This document shows positions 850-63,395 of a stretch of DNA of 64,000 nt, one piece after another. The notes beneath the pieces are model-generated. The model worked only from the letters and a program-made list of their open reading frames with translations. It was not told the DNA's origin and made no database searches. The translations under genes were made by a program, and so were the position numbers. The stretch's first letter is position 1. Each line of letters opens with the position of its first letter. Origin of the DNA: Bacteroidota bacterium (lineage in GTDB: Bacteria > Bacteroidota > Bacteroidia > Palsa-965); the NCBI GenBank assembly GCA_003153435.1, contig PLYR01000066.1:16168-80167 (forward strand), read 5' to 3'.

Positions 850-1419
850 ATGAAACAGGGTCTGCACTCATTCCTTATTGCATTTTTTTTATACTCCGCA
901 TTCTGTATCTCTGAAGGATATGGACAAAAGTCGCTTCCCAACTACAATGCACTATTTAAACGCGAAGCATTGGAAGGAAAATGGTATCTGGTCATGACAA
1001 ATGCCAGGCACTGGAACTCGGACAAAACAACCAATATCATTTTTGATTTCGTTACCCTGAAATCACCTTCCGGAGAAGCAACAGATCATTTTAACGAAAC
1101 AATTTCCTATCTCGAATCTGGCAAGGCAAAAGAACGGACAAAAGCACTGTACCCAAAAGCAAACAAGAAATTCGGTGAGCAGAAATTGTATAGAGGAAAA
1201 CATTCCCAGGTGCACTGGTATATTGTAGCTACAGCAACTGACAACCATTGGCTGGTTGTTTATCTTCACGGCGGTTTATTCAGGAAAGACGCAATAGAAG
1301 TCATTTCAAGAAACCCCAACCTCGATAAGGAAGACCTGGAACAGATCCGGAAATTATTTGAGGAGAGTTATTTTCTTCAGTCTAAGACCAAGAAGATCAG
1401 GGAAAATATTCAGAAGTAG
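850..1419 (+). CDS. Secreted lipocalin-like protein
   Basis: A 189-residue protein with an N-terminal signal peptide (about residues 1-25, ending near GYGQ). The mature start carries LEGKWYLV (residues 41-48), matching the G-x-W signature of bacterial lipocalins of the Blc type. The C-terminal part (IEVISRNPNLDKEDLEQIRK) resembles the ILSRTP...-helix end of Blc. Such proteins bind lipids or other hydrophobic ligands in the periplasm or outer membrane. There is no lipobox, so it is probably periplasmic rather than a lipoprotein. It begins on the base after the TerC stop codon. The assignment rests on short motifs; the ligand is unknown. Confidence 0.7.
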   Translation: MKQGLHSFLIAFFLYSAFCISEGYGQKSLPNYNALFKREALEGKWYLVMTNARHWNSDKTTNIIFDFVTLKSPSGEATDHFNETISYLESGKAKERTKALYPKANKKFGEQKLYRGKHSQVHWYIVATATDNHWLVVYLHGGLFRKDAIEVISRNPNLDKEDLEQIRKLFEESYFLQSKTKKIRENIQK

Positions 1420-1451
1420 ATGAATGATATGTCAGATTGTTTTTAGAATCT

Positions 1452-2351
1452 CTAAAAACCATGGAATGTTGTTCCAAGATGCCGGAACCAGAGTTCGGAA
1501 ATAACAAATACAGAGAAAATAATGCTCGCAATACCATTCAGGGTCATAAATGCGAGATTGATCCTACTCAGGTCATGGGGCTTTACAATAAAATGCTGGT
1601 AAATAAGCAGGAGTATAAATATAGACGCTCCGATCCAGTATAATATTCCAAAGCCTGCATAGACTCCAGCCTGAATCACAAGTAAAGCAGAACCTAGGTG
1701 AAGGAATGATGATAATATCAAGGTTCTTTTTTTACCTAACCAAACAGGGATAGATCGCAGATTTTGGGATCGGTCAAATTCTTCATCCTGTAAAGCATAA
1801 ATCATGTCAAATCCGCTGACCCAGCAGAGTACCGCAAATGAATACATCAGTGGCATAATATTGAATTTGCCGGTTACAGCGAGGAATGCTCCGATGGGAG
1901 CGAGGGATAAACCAATACCCAGTATAAGATGACAAAGTGCCGTAAAGCGTTTCGTATAGCTATATCCAAGAATGATTATCAGAGCCACAGGTGATAACTG
2001 AAAACAAATAGGATTAATAAACCAGGTAGTAAGGATGAAGAGGGCACAATTTAAAATTACAAAAAACAGGGCGTTCCTCGTGGAAATAATCCCTGCAGGA
2101 ATTTCACGGATTGCGGTGCGGGGATTCGCTGCATCATATCTGCGGTCGATATACCTGTTAAAACCCATCGCTGCACTTCTGGCAAAAACCATACAGAGAA
2201 TAACCAGCCCGAGCAGAGACCAGGAAAAGCGGGTTGTACTCATTGTTAATGCAAGAAAAAATCCGATCAGTGCAAAAGGAAGGGCAAAAACGGTATGACT
2301 GAACTTGATGAGTGAAAAATAGCTTTTCACCTTTGGAGCAGATTCGTTCAT
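1452..2351 (-). CDS. UbiA-family prenyltransferase, MqnP-like
   Basis: A 299-residue membrane prenyltransferase. The first Asp-rich motif is N65-x3-D69-x3-D73 in FNRYIDRRYDAANPRT, and the second is YALQDEEFDRSQNLRSIP; both coordinate the magnesium and polyprenyl diphosphate. The wording of the motifs fits the subgroup of putative 4-hydroxybenzoate polyprenyltransferases now linked to the futalosine route of menaquinone synthesis (MqnP), rather than MenA. About eight transmembrane segments are visible. Its 5' end overlaps the small membrane protein gene upstream by four bases (ATGA), indicating one transcript. A small inverted repeat (1440-1458) straddles its stop codon. Placement as MqnP rather than another UbiA member is inference. 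Confidence 0.85.
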   Translation of the reverse strand: MNESAPKVKSYFSLIKFSHTVFALPFALIGFFLALTMSTTRFSWSLLGLVILCMVFARSAAMGFNRYIDRRYDAANPRTAIREIPAGIISTRNALFFVILNCALFILTTWFINPICFQLSPVALIIILGYSYTKRFTALCHLILGIGLSLAPIGAFLAVTGKFNIMPLMYSFAVLCWVSGFDMIYALQDEEFDRSQNLRSIPVWLGKKRTLILSSFLHLGSALLVIQAGVYAGFGILYWIGASIFILLLIYQHFIVKPHDLSRINLAFMTLNGIASIIFSVFVISELWFRHLGTTFHGF

Positions 2352-2626
2352 GAACTGTGAAGGGCTTTAACGATCAGAATCATAATGATGGGAGCTGAAC
2401 AAAGCAAGATGCCAAGAGTCCCCGGCGTAACCTTCTTCTCACTGACCTTATAACGGAGATTCAGGAAAATATAAACATTGGAAGCCAGAAAGCCGATGAG
2501 CCCGCTGAGCATCGCAGCGAAAAGAAAGAACCTAATTGGTTTAACTAGAAAAAGTAAAGTGGTGGTAGCTGCGAGAACGCCGATAATGATCGAACAGGTA
2601 CCCAGAATCCGGGTGATTTTTTCCAT
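2348..2626 (-). CDS. Small membrane protein of unknown function
   Basis: A 92-residue protein with three hydrophobic segments (about residues 9-28, 31-55 and 70-88) and short polar loops. I do not recognise a family. Its stop overlaps the start of the UbiA-type gene by four bases and its start lies two bases after the stop of the subtilase gene, so it sits in the middle of a compact minus-strand transcription unit. The regular spacing, ATG start and good coding character argue that it is real. A small accessory membrane protein for the prenyltransferase is possible but unproven. Confidence 0.7.
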   Translation of the reverse strand: MEKITRILGTCSIIIGVLAATTTLLFLVKPIRFFLFAAMLSGLIGFLASNVYIFLNLRYKVSEKKVTPGTLGILLCSAPIIMILIVKALHSS

Positions 2627-2628
2627 AC

Positions 2629-4785
2629 TCAGTGAACGGCAATTTTTCGGGTTTCGCTTTTCATTCCTTTCCGGTCGAGGGTCAGGAAATAAATACCGCT
2701 TCCCATATTGCTACGGGGTAAAGTTAAGGACTTTGTTCCCTCCGGAACGGTAAAATGTATGATTTCCTTACCCAGCACATCAAAGACCCTGATTCCGGCA
2801 CTACCCTGTATTTCATCAAACGAAACGGTCGTGCTCTCCCCAAAGGGATTAGGCCATATTTCCAGATTTCCTCCTCTGTTAATGATCTCTGAAATGGCTA
2901 ATGGATTACAGAGAGTCATAGCTCCAAAAGCATTTGCTTTACCATATCCCCACTTGTTATCAGGCAGGGAAGATCCTGTATATACATCCTGTGTAGCGGA
3001 GCAGGTAATAGCCGCTTTAATATCGAGATTTGTGGCCCCTGGAGTCTGTTGGAGTAGAAGAGCCGCAATTCCGGTGATAACAGGTGAGGATTGAGAAGTC
3101 CCCCCTCCTACCAGATGCATCCCTCCATAACCAATCTGAGTGGCTGGTGAATAGTATTGCTTCTGAGACATGACCATGCAGGAGATTACATAATCACCGG
3201 TTGCGGCAATGTCTGGTTTTAGCAAGCCAGTTCGGGTTGGCCCGTGACCCGAAGAAGGAGCAAGTCTTCGCGGTCTGAAGATGAAACTGGTATCACACCA
3301 TACCGTATCATTCTCTGCAAGAAAACAATTCTTATTTACATAATTGGCTACACTGATCACATTCGGAGAACACTGAAAACCTGTTTCCATTGTTTTGTCG
3401 AAGTCTGGTAGCTTACCATTTGCAGCCGGAGGATAGATTACAGGAGATGGAAGAGGCCCTGGGAAGAACTGAAAACACCAGGCATCAAAGGTTCCTGTCC
3501 CGGAGGTAATTACCCTAAAATTATCATAAGTAGAATCGGGAGTCACGATATATTCAATGGAATATACATTTCCCTTTTTCTGCTCGAACGACTGGATTAC
3601 AGCCACACGATTGGAATTGCTGAAGATAGTATCATATACAATGACCCCTACCTGAGAGGTGAATGAACGAAAAGGGGTCCTGCCCCTGAATGAATAGGAA
3701 GGACTAACCTGATCGGCTCCGATCGCAAAATTAAGTCCTTTCATAGAAGAGGAGTCACCGTAAATCTGAACATCCATTACCGTATTGCCGTTGGCCGTGT
3801 CGCTGCTGTTAAAACGCATCCAGGTAAAGGAGGAGTCGTTGGTCAGGGAATTTGTTGAATGGTAAGCAATGTCGCCACTGTTACCGGTAGCAGCCACAAA
3901 CACCCTTCCGGGTTGGCCCGTAACAAGACTGTCAATGATTTTTGCTTCAAGATCCGTTCCATCATGCGATCCCATTTCTGATCCCAAACTGCAATTGATG
4001 ACACAAGGTTTCCCAAGGGCTTTTGCTTTGGAGAAAATATATTCAGCCCCGTCTGCAATAGTGGGTCCTGGGTTATTGAAATCCACGGCTACCATAATGA
4101 TATCAGCCTTGGGAGCGACACCTGCATAACGGTTAACAGCTCTTCCGTTTCCCGCTGCTGTTCCTGCCACACGTGTTCCATGACCATAATAAGGGGTATC
4201 CACTTCAGTGCACTTACCACTGTCAATCTGGATGTTCGTCCATTCCTGACCAAAGTTGAAAGGCTGGGGCGTATTCGCTGCAATAGGCATTTTCTGATCC
4301 CAGATATACAGAATTCTGGTTTTGCCAAGACTATCCTTGAAATCAGGATGTGTGAAATCTATACCGGTGTCAATAAACCCGCAGACAATACCTTTACCAT
4401 CATAAGCCTGGGAAAGGGGGGCTGTCCCGTTGTGTACTTTCACAATATTATTCAGATAAACCATCGTGTCATTGAGGGGATGAAGGCGGATACTACCTTG
4501 TTCTATCCGGGTAATGAAAGGTACGGATGCTAACTTAACGAGTTGATTGGCTGGAATAGTTACTGAGGAGATGGTACCTATGTGATATTTGTAGTGACCA
4601 CCACACTGCTCAACGGCCCGCTGAACACCAACAGTGTTACCTTGAATGAGTACACCGATCTGGGTATAATTTTTTGATTTGTTATGAGAGAGGCGGTAGA
4701 GCTCCATAGACATTTTGCTCTGCTGTCCATAGATACAGGAAACGCAGAGTAAAAAGAGAACTGAAAAAGAGATGCGGATATACAT
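2629..4785 (-). CDS. Secreted subtilisin-like serine protease with type IX sorting domain
   Basis: A 718-residue S8-family protease. A signal peptide covers residues 1-20. The catalytic triad is visible: Asp139 in GFIDTGIDFTHPDF, His202 in YGHGTRVAGTAAGN and Ser564 in GGTSQSSP. A long insertion of about 150 residues lies between the Asn-containing region (ATGNSGD, near 300) and the Ser block. The last 85 or so residues (WPNPFGESTTVSF..., ending with a beta-rich segment) match the type A C-terminal domain that directs export by the type IX secretion system and cell-surface attachment. It is the first gene of a minus-strand group with the small membrane protein and the UbiA-type gene. A protease acting outside the cell is the likely role. 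Confidence 0.93.
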   Translation of the reverse strand: MYIRISFSVLFLLCVSCIYGQQSKMSMELYRLSHNKSKNYTQIGVLIQGNTVGVQRAVEQCGGHYKYHIGTISSVTIPANQLVKLASVPFITRIEQGSIRLHPLNDTMVYLNNIVKVHNGTAPLSQAYDGKGIVCGFIDTGIDFTHPDFKDSLGKTRILYIWDQKMPIAANTPQPFNFGQEWTNIQIDSGKCTEVDTPYYGHGTRVAGTAAGNGRAVNRYAGVAPKADIIMVAVDFNNPGPTIADGAEYIFSKAKALGKPCVINCSLGSEMGSHDGTDLEAKIIDSLVTGQPGRVFVAATGNSGDIAYHSTNSLTNDSSFTWMRFNSSDTANGNTVMDVQIYGDSSSMKGLNFAIGADQVSPSYSFRGRTPFRSFTSQVGVIVYDTIFSNSNRVAVIQSFEQKKGNVYSIEYIVTPDSTYDNFRVITSGTGTFDAWCFQFFPGPLPSPVIYPPAANGKLPDFDKTMETGFQCSPNVISVANYVNKNCFLAENDTVWCDTSFIFRPRRLAPSSGHGPTRTGLLKPDIAATGDYVISCMVMSQKQYYSPATQIGYGGMHLVGGGTSQSSPVITGIAALLLQQTPGATNLDIKAAITCSATQDVYTGSSLPDNKWGYGKANAFGAMTLCNPLAISEIINRGGNLEIWPNPFGESTTVSFDEIQGSAGIRVFDVLGKEIIHFTVPEGTKSLTLPRSNMGSGIYFLTLDRKGMKSETRKIAVH

Positions 4786-4829
4786 AGGTGAATTACCATT
4801 TAAAGGTAGTCAAAAAAATGAAATATTCG

Positions 4830-4837
4830 TATATTTA
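4830..4837 (+). promoter_or_regulatory. Candidate -7 element for the Dlt-like operon
   Basis: The octamer TATATTTA matches the Bacteroidota TAnnTTTG element at seven of eight positions. It ends eight bases before the ATG, so a transcript would be almost leaderless. No clear TTTG is seen at the -33 distance. Confidence 0.3.
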
Positions 4838-4845
4838 CTTCCCAC

Positions 4846-6333
4846 ATGCCGAATGAAACTTCCGCTCCTTATACCCTTCGTTTTCTCAATGCTTGCAGGT
4901 CTTTTGGAGACAGGCCCGCCCTTGTTGATGCGGTAAAGTCCTATTCATATTCAGAACTGAAAGGAATAGTCTCTGGAATTATGAATTTGCTGACGGAACG
5001 ATTTCCAGATGAAACCATGATCGGAGTAGTCGATCAGAATGACGTCTATACTTATGCCTCGATTCTGGCCATCAATCTTTGTGGGAAAACACATGTGCCA
5101 TTCAATATCCGATACCCAGAGGAAAAGTTGGTTGTGATAGCTGAAAAAGCTTCGGTAAGGATAATCCTTTCCTCTTATGCTTTTCAGTGTGGGAATTTAC
5201 ACATACTATTGACGCTGGGTATAACAGGAGGCATTTCAGAGGATTTTGTTCCGGTAAAAAAATCTGTTAATCCTGCATATCTTCTTTTTACTTCAGGCAG
5301 CACCGGGGAACCGAAGGGTGTTCCCATTTACAATCATCATCTGAACGCATTCTTTGATTTTTTTCTTGACGGGGGAGTTTTTTATTTTGATGAAAAGGAC
5401 AGATTTCTGCAAGTCTATGAAACAAGCTTCGATGTGTCTGTATTTTCAGCTTTCACACCATTGCTTTCGGGTGGATGTTTTTACCTGCTTCCCAGGAAGA
5501 CTTTTGCCTATCTCGAAATCCCGAAAATACTTTCTTCTTGTGAAATAACAGTGCTGAGTATGGTCCCCTCCATGCTCCATTTTCTTTCTCCCTATTTTAA
5601 ACAGCTAAGATTTGAAAAACTGAGGTATAGTTTTTTCTCCGGCGATAAACTTCTGAATTCCCTATTGCAAGACTGGAGTACCTGTGTACCTCATTCAGTA
5701 ATCGTAAACTGTTATGGACCTACCGAAACAACCATCGTCTGTTCTCACTACCTATGGGATGCACAAAAAGCGGTGAAAGATTCTTTTGAAGGGATCGTAT
5801 CCATAGGAAAGCTTTTCCCTGGAACCAATTATGTTCTGAGAAATGCAAAGGAAATCGGGCCCGGCCTCCTGGAAGGGGAGCTCTGTCTATGCGGCCAACA
5901 AGTAATAGACGCCTATCTGAACAAGGAGAACTCGGAAAAATTTATGGAATGGACGCTAGACGGAAAAGAATGCCGGTTTTATTGCACTGGTGACCGGGTA
6001 AGGGTTAATACCGAGGGAAATCTTTTGTTTCTTGGCAGGACGGATCATCAAATCAAAGCAGGAGGTTATCGGGTGGAACCCGCAGAAATTGAGACCGCTC
6101 TGAGACAGGTGTCAGGAAACAGTCTCTGCGTTGTAATGGGTGTTGATTCGCTGCAAGGTTCTACCCAGGTTGTGGCGTTTGTGGAAGGAAAAGGAGATGA
6201 AACTGAACTTATCAGGAAGTTAAGGAAAAAACTTCCTCCTCACTGCATCCCTTCCCGAATTACCTTTCTTGATCAGCTGCCTTTGAACATCAACGGGAAA
6301 GTGGACCGCCGGGAATTGTGTAAATTTGTTTAA
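4846..6333 (+). CDS. DltA-like amino-acid/acyl adenylating ligase
   Basis: A 495-residue stand-alone adenylation protein, close in length to DltA (about 505). Core motifs are present: the P-loop TSGSTGEPKG (residues 149-158), NCYGPTETT, YCTGDRV, the hinge GRTDHQIKAGGYRVEPAEIE and the C-terminal NGKVDR with its catalytic Lys. It should activate an amino acid or small acid with ATP and load it onto a carrier protein. The downstream genes (carrier, MBOAT, SGNH-like protein) reproduce dltA-C-B-D content, so D-alanine is one guess, but the substrate pocket cannot be decided by eye. It starts a five-gene operon with gaps of 27, 2, -1 and 12 bases. Confidence 0.88.
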   Translation: MPNETSAPYTLRFLNACRSFGDRPALVDAVKSYSYSELKGIVSGIMNLLTERFPDETMIGVVDQNDVYTYASILAINLCGKTHVPFNIRYPEEKLVVIAEKASVRIILSSYAFQCGNLHILLTLGITGGISEDFVPVKKSVNPAYLLFTSGSTGEPKGVPIYNHHLNAFFDFFLDGGVFYFDEKDRFLQVYETSFDVSVFSAFTPLLSGGCFYLLPRKTFAYLEIPKILSSCEITVLSMVPSMLHFLSPYFKQLRFEKLRYSFFSGDKLLNSLLQDWSTCVPHSVIVNCYGPTETTIVCSHYLWDAQKAVKDSFEGIVSIGKLFPGTNYVLRNAKEIGPGLLEGELCLCGQQVIDAYLNKENSEKFMEWTLDGKECRFYCTGDRVRVNTEGNLLFLGRTDHQIKAGGYRVEPAEIETALRQVSGNSLCVVMGVDSLQGSTQVVAFVEGKGDETELIRKLRKKLPPHCIPSRITFLDQLPLNINGKVDRRELCKFV

Positions 6334-56257: not shown

Positions 56258-57193
56258 TTGGCAGAACGAGTAATTGATATCCGATCGGTAGACCCCGTTG
56301 AGCTGTATGGAGTGAATGATGCGAAGCTTGAGCAGATTCGAAAATACTTCCCTAAGTTAAAATTGATTGCAAGAGGTCAGGCTATCCGCGTTAAAGGAGA
56401 TGAAAAGGAATTGCAACGATTTGAGAAAAGTCTTGATGCGTTCATCAGCCACCATTCCAGATATGGCACCCTTACAGAGTCTATCATTGACCGGATCATG
56501 AGCAAGGGAGAGGAGAAAGAAGAAGGACCTCAAAATAACGATATTATTGTCCACGGTAATGGTGGGTTGATTATTCGTGCGAGGACCGTGAATCAGGCCC
56601 GGCTTGTGGAGAGCTGCACCAAAAACGACATGATATTTGCCATAGGCCCTGCAGGTACGGGAAAAACCTATACTGCGGTAGCACTAGCAGTACGTGCACT
56701 AAAAAATAAAGAAGTAAGGAAAATTATTCTTACCCGGCCGGCAGTGGAAGCTGGCGAAAATCTGGGCTTTCTGCCAGGCGATATGAAAGAAAAGCTGGAT
56801 CCTTATCTCCAGCCCCTTTATGATGCCTTATATGATATGATCCAGCCGGAGAAACTGAATTATTATCTGGAGAATAGAATTGTGGAGATTGCTCCGCTTG
56901 CATTTATGCGCGGACGAACGCTTGACAATGCATTCGTAATCTTAGATGAGGCTCAGAATGCAACAGCCGCTCAGTTGAAAATGTTCCTGACCCGAATGGG
57001 CCCTTCAGCCAAATTTGTTATCACCGGAGACCTCACCCAGATTGATTTACCGAAGCAACAACCATCCGGACTCGAACCTGCCCTTTACAAAGTCAATGAA
57101 ATTGAAGGTGTGGAGGTAATCTATCTCGACGGAAATGATGTTCTCCGACACCGCCTTGTTAAACGAATAATTGAAGCCTACGATAAACCATGA
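56258..57193 (+). CDS. PhoH family ATPase
   Basis: A 311-residue PhoH-like protein. An N-terminal KH-like segment ([30 protein letters not shown]) is followed by the NTPase with Walker [16 protein letters not shown] (near residues 127-141) and Walker [13 protein letters not shown]. The start is a TTG at 56258 ([11 protein letters not shown]); no ATG is near. The family takes part in RNA metabolism and phosphate-starvation or stress responses. Its stop overlaps the purC start region by four bases (ATGA), so the two genes are translationally coupled. Confidence 0.93.
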
Positions 57194-58149
57194 AAACAAC
57201 TATGAACAATGTATTAAAAGCTACGGCTTTTCAACTCCCAGGTCAGGTTTCCAGGTACCAGGGTAAAGTAAGGGATGTATATACGCTCTCCAACAAATTA
57301 CTTGTAATGGTAGCGACAGACCGGATTTCTGCTTTTGATGTCGTCCTGCCGGAAGGAATTCCTTACAAAGGGCAGGTCCTCAATCAGATTGCAGCTAAAT
57401 TTCTTGCCGCTACTTCCGACATTGTACCCAACTGGGTACTTGCTGTTCCAGACCCTGTAGTCACAGTAGGTAAAGCATGCGAGCCGTTTAAGGTTGAAAT
57501 GGTCATCAGAGGATATCTGAGCGGACATGCTGCAAGAGAATATGCTGCAGGAAAGCGGAAAATCTGTGGAGTATCTATGCCTGAAAACATGAAAGAAAAC
57601 GATCGTTTTCCGGAGCCACTCCTCACCCCAACCACAAAGGCCACTGAAGGACATGATGAAGATATCTCCAGGGAGGAGATCCTGGCTCAGGGCCTTGTTT
57701 CCAAAGCGGATTATGAAGCGATTGAAAAGTATACACGTGCTTTATTCAAGCGGGGCACTGAAATGGCGGCATCCCGGGGACTAATCTTAGTCGATACAAA
57801 ATACGAATTTGGCAAGGCGGATGGCAAGATATTTCTTATCGATGAAATTCATACTCCCGATTCTTCCAGGTATTTTTATCTGGAGGGCTATGAGGAACAT
57901 CAGCGAAAAGGGGAACCTCAAAAGCAGCTTTCAAAAGAATTCGTCAGGCAGTGGTTAATTGAAAACGGATTCCAGGGGAAGGAAGGACAAAAAGTTCCTG
58001 AAATGACCGAGAAGGTGATCAATGATATTTCTGAACGATACATTGAGCTGTTTGAACAGATCACAGGAGAAAAGTTCGTTAAATCAGATGCTTTGGATGC
58101 GATGGAAAGGGTAGAAAAGAATGTTCTTTCCTTTCTGACTTCCCTATAG
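57190..58149 (+). CDS. purC: Phosphoribosylaminoimidazole-succinocarboxamide synthase
   Basis: A 319-residue SAICAR synthetase, the longer form typical of Bacteroidota and eukaryotes. It joins CAIR and aspartate with ATP in purine synthesis. Visible are [28 protein letters not shown] (first 15 diagnostic), [17 protein letters not shown], the [15 protein letters not shown] stretch and [10 protein letters not shown] second ATG lies five codons in. The first ATG overlaps the phoH stop, giving coupling. The gene is followed by the M61-like gene after 48 bases. Confidence 0.96.
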
Positions 58150-58197: not shown

Positions 58198-60063
58198 ATG
58201 AGGAATTGTATAATCGGTCTTGTCTTTCTTTTATACTCTACCGCAGTCTTTGCACAAGGCAAGTACCTTATTACACTTGATCTGAATAATATCCTGAGCG
58301 ACAGGATCAAGGTTACGATAGTCCCACCCCGGCTGAATGACCGTGAAATACGGTATGTGATGCCTGCCTATATCCAGGGTTCTTATTTCCGGAAAGATTT
58401 TGGGCGTTTTATTTCCGACATGCTCGTGATTACCAAATCCGGCAATTCCCTGGACATCAAAAAAGACGGTGAAAATATATTCGTGATTAAAAATAAGAAT
58501 GCTGAAGAGATTGCCAAAATCGAATACTACATAAGTGATAGCTGGGACATGGAGAAGCCTATTCCCTCTATGACTGATGAGGAGTTTAACTATGTATTTC
58601 AGCCAGGGGGAACCAATATTACTGCCGGCCAGAATGTAGTTATCAATCATTATGGCTTTTTCGGATATATCGATGGATATAAGGATAATCCCTATGAGCT
58701 TCTTATTCAGAAACCAACTTCCTTCTATGGTTCTACAACGCTAAGCAGAAGAAAGGGGACCGCCACCAAGGATTACTTCGCTGCTGAAAACTACACCAAG
58801 CTGGTGGATAATCCGATTATGTACTGTGTACCTGATACAACCAGTTTTAATATCGACAGCACTCATATAAGCATTTCTGTTTATTCGGAAAACGGGAAAG
58901 TGAAAGCAAAAAACCTGACTTATTATCTGATCATGCTTTGCTCAGCTGTTCGGGACAATCTTGGTCACCTTCCTGTGAAGCAATATTCTTATATTATGTA
59001 TTTCGCAAATCCAAACAATCAATCCATAACGAAGTATGGAGGATTTGGAGGGATGGAACACAACTACTGTTCTTTTTATTTTCTTCCGGAGATAGCAAGA
59101 GCTGATAGCCTAGATGGGATACTCAAACAGTTTATTCCGCATAATTTCATGCATATCCTGACCCCTCTGAATATACACAGTGAAAAACTGGATGCTTTTG
59201 ATTACAAGCATGTGCCTCAATCCAAACATCTTTGGTTGTATGAAGGGGTTACTGAATATCTCTCCTATCTAGTGCAGGTTAAAGACTCCATTATGACGGA
59301 AGATGAGTTTATGGATATTTTCCATGAAAAAATGGATAGGGCGGTGACCTATCCGGATATTTCGCTCACGGAGATCAGTAAAAACCTCAACAAAAAGGCA
59401 AACCGGGATGCCTACATGAATATATTTGACAAAGGTGCTGTGACAGCCATGATGATGGATTCCCGCCTGATGGAACTCAGCAACGGGAAGATGGGCTTGA
59501 AGGATGTGCTTTTGAAACTATCTGAGAAATATGGACCTAACAGATCATTCATAGATGATTCCCTTTTTGATGAGATAGTGAAGATTTCCTATCCGGAGAT
59601 GAAAACATTTTTCGATGATTATCTTGTAGCCAACAAACCACTTCCTTACAGAGAATATTTCGGGAAGATGGGTTTGAATTATTATGCATCCAAAGTAGAT
59701 ACGGTGTGGTCTTTCGGCAAATTTAGCATGGCTATTGATCAGGTCAAGGATGAACTGGTGATTATCAAGGTAGAGCCTGGAAATCTTTTCGGATTACAGA
59801 AGGGAGATTTTCTCGTTGCTGTGAATGATATCCCGCTTACCCTGTATAACTTTGAATTGCTGATGATTCCGGTTTATAAGGCAAAGAATGGAGAAAAAGT
59901 AAAATTGGCTTATAACCGCGGGGCTACAAAGCTGGAGAAAGAAGCCTTGCCCCGCTGGATCGTTGAAAAGCGGACGAATGTGCTGACCACCAATGAAGCT
60001 GCCACAGATGAGCAAAAAGCGTTTCGAGAGCGCTTCCTGGGGCCCTCCAATACTAAAAACTGA
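58198..60063 (+). CDS. M61-like protein with altered zinc-binding motif
   Basis: A 621-residue secreted protein (signal peptide about 1-19) with the layout of peptidase M61: a beta-rich N-terminal domain, a thermolysin-like middle and a C-terminal PDZ domain near residues 500-590 (IIKVEPGNLFGLQKGDFLVAVNDIPL, with the carboxylate-binding part recognisable). The HEXXH motif is replaced by H315-N-F-M-H319, so both zinc His are present but the catalytic Glu is Asn; the third ligand Glu349 in WLYEGVTEYL is kept. It should fold and may bind zinc yet be inactive as a protease. It follows purC by 48 bases. Confidence 0.85.
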   Translation: MRNCIIGLVFLLYSTAVFAQGKYLITLDLNNILSDRIKVTIVPPRLNDREIRYVMPAYIQGSYFRKDFGRFISDMLVITKSGNSLDIKKDGENIFVIKNKNAEEIAKIEYYISDSWDMEKPIPSMTDEEFNYVFQPGGTNITAGQNVVINHYGFFGYIDGYKDNPYELLIQKPTSFYGSTTLSRRKGTATKDYFAAENYTKLVDNPIMYCVPDTTSFNIDSTHISISVYSENGKVKAKNLTYYLIMLCSAVRDNLGHLPVKQYSYIMYFANPNNQSITKYGGFGGMEHNYCSFYFLPEIARADSLDGILKQFIPHNFMHILTPLNIHSEKLDAFDYKHVPQSKHLWLYEGVTEYLSYLVQVKDSIMTEDEFMDIFHEKMDRAVTYPDISLTEISKNLNKKANRDAYMNIFDKGAVTAMMMDSRLMELSNGKMGLKDVLLKLSEKYGPNRSFIDDSLFDEIVKISYPEMKTFFDDYLVANKPLPYREYFGKMGLNYYASKVDTVWSFGKFSMAIDQVKDELVIIKVEPGNLFGLQKGDFLVAVNDIPLTLYNFELLMIPVYKAKNGEKVKLAYNRGATKLEKEALPRWIVEKRTNVLTTNEAATDEQKAFRERFLGPSNTKN

Positions 60064-60075
60064 TCCTGTTTTCCT

Positions 60076-60450
60076 GTGTCCCGTTTTTTCAAAAAACAAA
60101 CCCGTTGGTACAAAGTGTTTGAGTCACTTCTGGAGGCCGAAGAGCGAGTGCCTTTATTTCAAACAGAAACAGTCCTTGCCGGCCATAAAAAGATCTGTCT
60201 GGCCCATACACAAGAAGGGATTTTTGCGGTAGGAGATCGTTGTCCGCATAATGGATTTTCCCTGGGTAAGGGTTGGTGTACCCCTGAACAAACAGTTGTT
60301 TGCCCGCTTCACCGTTATGCCTTCGATTTGCGAACGGGCAGGGCGCGAACAGGTTTGGCTGATTATGTTGACACCTATAAGGTGGAGTCCCGCCCCGATG
60401 GCTTTTTTGTGGGAATTGAAGAAACTGTTTTTACCCTTTTCGGGGAGTGA
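60076..60450 (+). CDS. Rieske [2Fe-2S] ferredoxin-like protein
   Basis: A 124-residue Rieske protein. The cluster ligands are Cys56 and His58 in RCPHNG and Cys76 and His79 in CPLHRYAF, with the usual loop between them. The start is a GTG at 60076 (MSRFFKKQTRWYKVFESL). It has no signal peptide or membrane segment, so it is cytoplasmic and resembles nitrite reductase small subunit-type or oxygenase ferredoxins. No oxygenase or reductase partner is nearby. It lies 12 bases after the M61-like gene and converges on the metallo-hydrolase gene. Confidence 0.9.
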   Translation: MSRFFKKQTRWYKVFESLLEAEERVPLFQTETVLAGHKKICLAHTQEGIFAVGDRCPHNGFSLGKGWCTPEQTVVCPLHRYAFDLRTGRARTGLADYVDTYKVESRPDGFFVGIEETVFTLFGE

Positions 60451-61331: not shown

Positions 61332-63395
61332 TTACCAGATTTTAACCCTGTCTTTTACCTCCCTGTACATTTTATCTCCAGGTTTTACATTAAAAGCGGT
61401 ATAGAAGGCTGTAATGTTAGAAAGAGGTCCATTCACCCGGAATTGTGCCGGTGCATGAACATCAGACATAATCTGTTTGGCGAGAGACTCATTCCTTTTC
61501 TGTTGCATCCAGGAATAGGCATAAGCCAGGAAGTAGCGTTGATCGGGGGTTAGCCCATTGATCTTGATCTGCTTTTTCCACTGATCTGTTTTTTTAAAGG
61601 CTTCGTAGCCCATGATTACGCCGCCGAGGTCAGCAATGTTTTCCCCGAGGCAAGCGTAACCTCTGATGTGCATGCTATCGAGAACGGTATACTTGTTGAA
61701 CTGTTCGGCAAGTTTTCTGGAACGTTCGTTGAACTTGCTGCTGTCACTACTGGTCCACCAGTTATTCAAGTTTCCTTTTTCATCATACTGACTTCCTTCA
61801 TCATCAAAACCATGAGTAATCTCGTGACCCATGGTAGAACCACCAACAACTCCGTATAGTGTGGCATCATCCGGCTGCCCCATGCCAAATCCCGGAACAA
61901 TGAGATTGCAGGCAGGGATAACAATTTCATTGTTTGTTGGCTCGTAATAAGCATTATAGGTTTCCGGCGTCATGACCCATTCGGCACGGTCAACCGGCTT
62001 CCCATAACGGGCAATCATGTACTGATAATGCCAGGACCCGATATTCATAATGTTCCCGGCAAGAGAGGTTCGGTTGATGATTAAAGCGGAATGGTCTCTC
62101 CATTTATCAGGGTAGCCCATTTTCATAGTTACTCCATCCAGTTTATGCAAGGCTTTTTTCTTGGTATCGTCCGACATCCAGTCGAGGCTTTTGAGGTGTT
62201 CAGCATATACCGCAAGAATATTCTTGCCCATGGTGGTAAGTCTTTCTTTCGCATCGGCAGGCACATAATGAGCCACATATTCCTGACCCACAATTTCACC
62301 GAGCATGCTTTCGGTCAGGTCAACCATGCGTTTCCATCTTGGTCTCTGAATTTTCGACCCGGTCATCACAGTATGGTTGAAATGAAAATCTTCGAGCTCG
62401 AATTCTTTCCCCATGAATTCTGCAAAACGGTCCAGCAGCTGCCACTTGAAGTAAGGTTTCCAGTTATTATCCGGATCACGAAGGGATTTGTCCATACCAC
62501 TTAGAAACTCAGGTTGACCGGTGATAACGGTATCTACCTTTGGGAGTCCCATGAGCGTAAACATTTCTTTCCAGTTGATAGTCGGGGTCAGGTTGTTGAA
62601 CTTCTCAATCGGCAGTTTATTGTAGTTTTTATAAGGATCCCTGAGATCTTCCATTTTACGGGAGATAGAGGCAAGGTCTGTCTCCAGTGCAAGCACAGAA
62701 TTAGCTTCGGTTCTTGCCTTCGCATCATCATCACCGCTTAGTTTGAACATATTAATCATATGCTCGAAGTAGGCTGTTCTGATTTTAACGGTCCTAGCAT
62801 CATTGTTGAGATAGTAATCTCTGTCAGGTAATCCGATTCCCCCCTGCTGGACGAAGGCCGCATATTTGGAACTCATTTTATCATCTCTGCTGATATAGAA
62901 GGTGAATAAGGTAGGACATCCGAGTGTATGCAGATGAGCGCACTCGCTCAGAATATCGCGGGTGCTTTTCATGTTTTCGATAACTTTCAATTCCTTATCA
63001 AGGGATTTAATTCCTTCTTTTTCCCTGGATATAGTATCCATTGCACTGGCATAGAAGTCACCTATTTTTTGTTTGACCGTTCCTTTAGCTCCTGGATTTG
63101 CGGCACAATCATCACAGATAATATGCAGGATGTGATTGATGCTATCTCCAACGGTAAGGTAGATTCCGTTGCTGCTTTCTGAAGGCGGGATTGGGTTTTT
63201 CCGGAACCATCCGCCATTGGCATAATTCCAGAAATCATTTCCGGGTTTGATGAGGGTATCGCGTTGTGTAGAAAGAGGGTCAGCTTTGAGGATGATGTTC
63301 TCAAAGGAGCTTTTAAGAAACGTGAAGGAACATAAAAGGATTAGGGATCCGAGCAGGATCACGTGGCCTGAACTCAATTTTTTCTTTAAGTGCAT
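61332..63395 (-). CDS. M13 family (neprilysin-like) metallopeptidase
   Basis: A 687-residue peptidase with an N-terminal membrane anchor or signal (about residues 8-27). It is organised as the long helical M13 N-terminal domain followed by the catalytic domain with GHEITHGFDDEGSQYD (zinc motif HEITH) and ENIADLGGV, which gives the third ligand Glu. It should cut short peptides in the periplasm. Length is typical for bacterial M13 peptidases. The second gene of the unit is the MBL-fold hydrolase. Confidence 0.95.
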   Translation of the reverse strand: MHLKKKLSSGHVILLGSLILLCSFTFLKSSFENIILKADPLSTQRDTLIKPGNDFWNYANGGWFRKNPIPPSESSNGIYLTVGDSINHILHIICDDCAANPGAKGTVKQKIGDFYASAMDTISREKEGIKSLDKELKVIENMKSTRDILSECAHLHTLGCPTLFTFYISRDDKMSSKYAAFVQQGGIGLPDRDYYLNNDARTVKIRTAYFEHMINMFKLSGDDDAKARTEANSVLALETDLASISRKMEDLRDPYKNYNKLPIEKFNNLTPTINWKEMFTLMGLPKVDTVITGQPEFLSGMDKSLRDPDNNWKPYFKWQLLDRFAEFMGKEFELEDFHFNHTVMTGSKIQRPRWKRMVDLTESMLGEIVGQEYVAHYVPADAKERLTTMGKNILAVYAEHLKSLDWMSDDTKKKALHKLDGVTMKMGYPDKWRDHSALIINRTSLAGNIMNIGSWHYQYMIARYGKPVDRAEWVMTPETYNAYYEPTNNEIVIPACNLIVPGFGMGQPDDATLYGVVGGSTMGHEITHGFDDEGSQYDEKGNLNNWWTSSDSSKFNERSRKLAEQFNKYTVLDSMHIRGYACLGENIADLGGVIMGYEAFKKTDQWKKQIKINGLTPDQRYFLAYAYSWMQQKRNESLAKQIMSDVHAPAQFRVNGPLSNITAFYTAFNVKPGDKMYREVKDRVKIW

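Follow-up and report, generated by a model that had tools for sequence, protein, structure and literature searches.

Inactive homologues are present in most peptidase families. Metallopeptidase pseudoenzymes have been reviewed, and include ADAM2, ADAM7, ADAM11, ADAM22 and ADAM23, alpha-MPP, FtsHi and Gone early (PMC11266112). Family M61 has no entry in this review, and no description of an M61 pseudopeptidase was found in the literature searched (subscription journals and MEROPS lay outside the search). M61 comprises glycyl aminopeptidases (PF05299/PF17899), and structures are available as PDB entries 4fgm, 8j9c and 7xyo. M1 aminopeptidases such as ERAP1, IRAP, PfA-M1 and D. radiodurans M1 share the fold; in these, the oxyanion is stabilised by the tyrosine at the YxKG position (PMC8421391).

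The gene described here, M61-B, is located in a stretch of 64,000 nucleotides (hereafter the window) from a Bacteroidota genome available as a 149-contig draft. Its coordinates, and those of all the features discussed, are listed in Table 1. The coding sequence, 58198-60063 on the + strand, spans 621 codons from an ATG start and is uninterrupted and free of frameshifts. An initial annotation had described a full-length gene with a signal peptide and a PDZ domain. Length and signal peptide are borne out, and all the coordinates given in it are correct; the signal peptide, recognized by inspection, reads MRNCIIGLVFLLYSTAVFA, followed by QG. The PDZ assignment is tentative: the single-sequence Pfam score is under the cut-off, but residues 517-586 of the family profile give weak matches to PDZ domains in the PDB, and the C-terminal domain is rich in beta structure in the AlphaFold model. 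The Pfam models of the M61 N-terminal and catalytic domains both score above the curated cut-off (PF17899, 105.6 bits versus 23, E=3.6e-30; PF05299, 48 bits versus 22, E=1.9e-12), and no NCBIfam match was obtained for the protein. The metal-free AlphaFold2 model, built from 40 alignment rows, has a pLDDT of 90.8 and a pTM of 0.86. Against the PDB it matches the three M61 structures best (4fgm, E=1.5e-35, TM 0.68-0.72), and M1 aminopeptidases after them. By domain models and fold, M61-B is a member of peptidase family M61 by descent.

Table 1. Features of the M61-B locus in the window, and corresponding features in related genomes.
Feature	Position	Strand	Basis or remark
phoH, syntenic marker	56258..57193	+	upstream in g1, g2, g3 and L047
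purC, SAICAR synthetase, syntenic marker	57190..58149	+	conserved upstream
M61-family pseudo-aminopeptidase, probable (M61-B), 621 aa	58198..60063	+	AlphaFold model pLDDT 90.8; top PDB match 4fgm
Sec signal peptide, residues ~1-20	58198..58257	+	inspection; hydrophobic core and low conservation across relatives
Peptidase_M61_N domain, residues 26-209	58273..58824	+	PF17899 E=3.6e-30
GGMEH motif (284-288), corresponding to GAMEN of M1; Glu287 kept	59047..59061	+	alignment
HNFMH motif, residues 315-319; Asn316 in place of the general-base Glu, both zinc-ligand His retained	59140..59154	+	codons and alignment
Glu349, third zinc ligand, kept	59242..59244	+	alignment; within LWLYEG
Phe410, replacing the near-invariant catalytic Tyr of YxKG	59425..59427	+	alignment; Tyr in PDB 4fgm
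PDZ-like C-terminal domain, residues ~491-600	59668..59997	+	weak single-sequence Pfam, profile matches, strand pattern
Rieske [2Fe-2S] protein gene	60076..60450	+	PF00355 E=2.8e-11
Site-defective M61-B copies of g3	L129:9640-11973, L021, L028, L029, L036, L038, L039, L040		full length
Inserted gene of ~705 aa	L126:11878-13998, L129:11976-14123, L130:11323-13428, L134:10997-13114

The active site departs from the M61 pattern at two positions. The codons at 59140-59154 (cat aat ttc atg cat) encode His315-Asn316-Phe-Met-His319, so that the general-base glutamate of HEXXH is replaced by asparagine, as the initial annotation had stated. Alignment also upheld its claim that the two zinc-binding histidines and the distal Glu349 are kept. 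A second catalytic loss, absent from that annotation, was found at residue 410, where phenylalanine (motif FDKG) replaces tyrosine in all three known HNFMH proteins; a profile alignment places a tyrosine at this YxKG position also in the solved M61 protein 4fgm. The three HNFMH proteins, all encoded by the genus of the window (g1), have Asn316 in common. Sixty-one alignment columns are near-invariant, being conserved in at least 97% of 101 intact relatives, and 49 of them are kept in the g1 copies. The changed columns include Glu316 and Tyr410, but neither a metal ligand nor Glu287. Conservation is strong along the active-site helix.

The substitution at residue 316 is genuine. Homologues were aligned at the motif site, and HEXXH was not seen throughout the close ones: the two same-genus orthologues found (L004 and L005; identities to M61-B of 77% and 73%) both carry HNFMH. 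The asparagine codon varies, being AAT in the window and in G003 and AAC in G002, and a change from Glu (GAR) to Asn (AAY) requires at least two base changes. Because of these observations HNFMH can be attributed neither to an error nor to a strain mutation. A mistake of sequencing or assembly at the Asn316 codon, for which nothing speaks beyond the draft origin of the window, has a negligible probability and is ruled out as an explanation by the same-genus copies and their differing codons. The three known HNFMH sequences all come from draft or incomplete genomes. When 395 genomes of the class were searched with a degenerate pattern, the HN form of the motif was found in 3, all of g1, and the HE form in 87, spanning 37 genera.

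A genome search and a named genome collection yielded 113 distinct M61 relatives, the counts referring to related sequences and not to independent events. HExxH, the distal glutamate and the tyrosine are all kept in 103 of them, and the catalytic columns are thus otherwise near-invariant: M61-B has lost residues that its relatives retain. The ten exceptions belong to one taxonomic family and one locus. Three are the g1 orthologues, the only relatives combining HNFMH with FDKG. The other seven are M61-B copies of the sister genus g3, in which most of the active site is lost (GDILH, ADMMH and DALMQ are found, among others, in place of HExxH). In these copies the tyrosine is lost, and the glutamate of GxxEH mostly so; in L036 the tyrosine letter is present, but its context is shifted. 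About half of the 61 near-invariant columns are kept in g3.

M61-B directly, or almost directly, follows phoH-purC in g1, g2 and g3, as well as in L047, which lies outside the taxonomic family. The g3 copies are syntenic wherever the contig extends far enough to show the neighbours; the G007 contig is too short for phoH-purC to be visible. Because this locus is syntenic, the M61-B copies are positional orthologues, despite identities that go down to 25%. The ten defective copies and the intact g2 copy, found in G004 (HEFLH, YEKG), make up one clade with HEFLH relatives of other taxonomic families. A tree of phoH and purC joins g2 to g3 with full support (100/100) and leaves g1 outside. As the intact g2 copy groups with g3 in this tree, two losses, one in g1 and one independently in g3, are the more probable history. 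The M61 tree, the weight of which is lowered by the long g3 branches, agrees with the grouping of g2 and g3 (92/90). A single loss common to g1 and g3 is not rejected by the M61 tree (AU p=0.22) and is disfavoured by the phoH and purC tree.

The Rieske gene starts 12 nt 3' of the M61-B stop. The pairing is conserved in g1 and in several g3 genomes, and across syntenic loci a Rieske gene is often found 3' of M61-B. No clear functional link emerged from the genes neighbouring M61-B, and a scan for promoters and terminators gave results near chance. In g2 and in several g3 genomes a gene of ~705 aa lies on the same strand between purC and M61-B; those of L126 and L129 encode a TPR-SpoIIE phosphatase, and no such gene is found at this place in the window. 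The intervening phosphatase gene may hint at a signalling context. The window also hosts an M13 (neprilysin-like) peptidase gene with an intact HEITH at 61332-63395 on the - strand; two tandem M13 copies are found at the corresponding place in the relative G002 (L125:2-2170 and 3164-5317).

The genome of the window carries also an intact M61 paralogue (L002, positions 1251-3080 of the 4875-base contig C138 of G000), which features HEFFH. Among the three HNFMH genes dN (NG86) is 0.16-0.20, versus 0.23-0.26 among intact g1 paralogues, which were taken from a set of three genomes that overlaps only in part. Third codon positions differ by 55-59% between pairs of HNFMH genes, second positions by 12-13%. 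The dS of these genes is saturated, too diverged to be reliable, hence dN and differences per codon position are given and no ratio; omega from codon models is likewise unreadable, because of synonymous saturation, with tree lengths near 25. These figures point to purifying selection on the HNFMH copy, whose divergence is smaller than that of the intact paralogue. In g3 the defective copies are faster than the intact ones (dN 0.34-0.43 versus 0.27-0.33). The excess change falls chiefly in the catalytic domain, where identity is 48% in defective and 76% in intact copies; the N-terminal domain is equally conserved in the two (64% and 63%).

The fast evolution of the g3 copies, with only about half of the conserved columns left, is what would be expected if M61-B were a functionless gene decaying toward loss. 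This is disfavoured, and we regard it as very improbable, as all ten defective copies are open over their full length, synteny is kept, and the constraint on amino acids is in g1 stronger than in the active paralogue. Gene and predicted M61 fold outlast the metal site in g3, hence selection on these copies would not act via catalysis. One g3 protein indeed gives a confident M61 model (pLDDT 87.1), in which the order of strands and helices is unchanged; its alignment contains intact members, which aids prediction. Since the His and Glu ligands have been lost in g3, the function retained by these orthologues would be independent of metal. A function common to g1 and g3 would depend on the scaffold, with the N-terminal domain, the better conserved part, as its most likely seat.

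It is quite probable that M61-B is a maintained secreted pseudo-aminopeptidase, which may bind the amino termini of peptides, perhaps with zinc, without cutting them. The secreted protein would sit in the periplasm or on the surface. In the g1 ancestor, two substitutions in the orthologue of an active M61 enzyme, Glu316 to Asn and Tyr410 to Phe, would have removed the general base and the oxyanion tyrosine. The N-terminal and PDZ-like domains would have been retained, as would the three metal ligands (His315, His319 and Glu349) and Glu287, the anchor for the amino terminus. The old active-site cleft would then bind amino termini of peptides or proteins, perhaps on a bound zinc, holding rather than cleaving them, and M61-B would serve as a sequestering, sensing or partner subunit. 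The g1 proteins fit binding without cutting, because they retain Glu287 and the metal ligands but have lost both residues of the chemistry; binding of a metal by the three remaining ligands is plausible. PDB entry 6ifg shows, according to its title, a tripeptide bound to an M1 enzyme whose general base has been mutated (E323A), and loss of the general base can therefore leave peptide binding. The metal-binding pseudo-protease of the initial annotation is strengthened in its second term by the loss of the tyrosine, the synteny and the purifying selection; the chaperone role that it offered beside a binding one found no specific support.

Asn316 could orient water, and weak activity could follow. 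M61-B would then be a residual or altered enzyme, in which Asn316 or Glu287 orients the water for slow catalysis or for another zinc reaction. The conserved helix, the three metal ligands and Glu287 of g1 suit such an enzyme, as does the fact that in the M1 enzyme PfA-M1 the GAMEN glutamate also contacts the nucleophilic water (PMC3244404). It is nevertheless unlikely, as the base and the tyrosine, separate parts of the chemistry, have been lost together, and the sister-genus orthologues do without the entire site. Most genomes of the taxonomic family hold one intact and one site-defective M61 copy (in G001, G003 and G011, which are 59-66% complete, one of the two was found). M61-B might accordingly regulate the intact C138 paralogue or form a heteromer with it, like the inactive alpha subunit of the mitochondrial processing peptidase (PMC11266112). 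We view this as a tentative option, somewhat doubtful since the two M61 copies are unlinked and 37% identical, and G004 carries both of them intact; being one specific form of pseudoenzyme, it overlaps in probability with the pseudo-aminopeptidase preferred here. For the fuller account, in which an M61 orthologue group has been inactivated at least twice in one taxonomic family at a fixed locus, giving a peptide-binding HNFMH/Phe form that retains the metal site and a form with a dismantled site, the chances appear about even.

If this fuller account is true, M61-B and its orthologues would form a natural series that leads from an enzyme (HEFLH, in g2) to a scaffold, and no pseudopeptidase of family M61 was found described in the literature searched. 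Bacterial secreted pseudopeptidases have been little studied. With intact, half-dismantled and fully dismantled orthologues at one locus, and an intact paralogue elsewhere, a non-catalytic scaffold role becomes directly comparable. Caution is also advised in annotating M61-B genes as aminopeptidases, as the HNFMH form passes the Pfam cut-off.

M61-B shares with the M61 glycyl aminopeptidases domain order, fold, metal ligands, the GxxEH motif and, tentatively, the PDZ-like C-terminus, but differs from them in that general-base glutamate and catalytic tyrosine are both replaced. The L002 paralogue is equal to it in length and domains and is similarly secreted, but has HEFFH, glutamate and tyrosine all intact. 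M1 aminopeptidases have the same gluzincin catalytic fold, and their HEXXH...E, GAMEN-like motif and YxKG tyrosine position correspond to M61-B sites; they belong however to another family and match the fold distantly (E 1e-14 to 1e-16), and M61-B lacks the M1 C-terminal domain. The metallopeptidase pseudoenzymes reviewed in PMC11266112 have similarly lost HEXXH residues and retained fold and gene, but are eukaryotic and belong to other families. Pseudopeptidases are well known from that review; what is of interest here is the occurrence at one locus of graded sites, intact, half-lost and fully lost.
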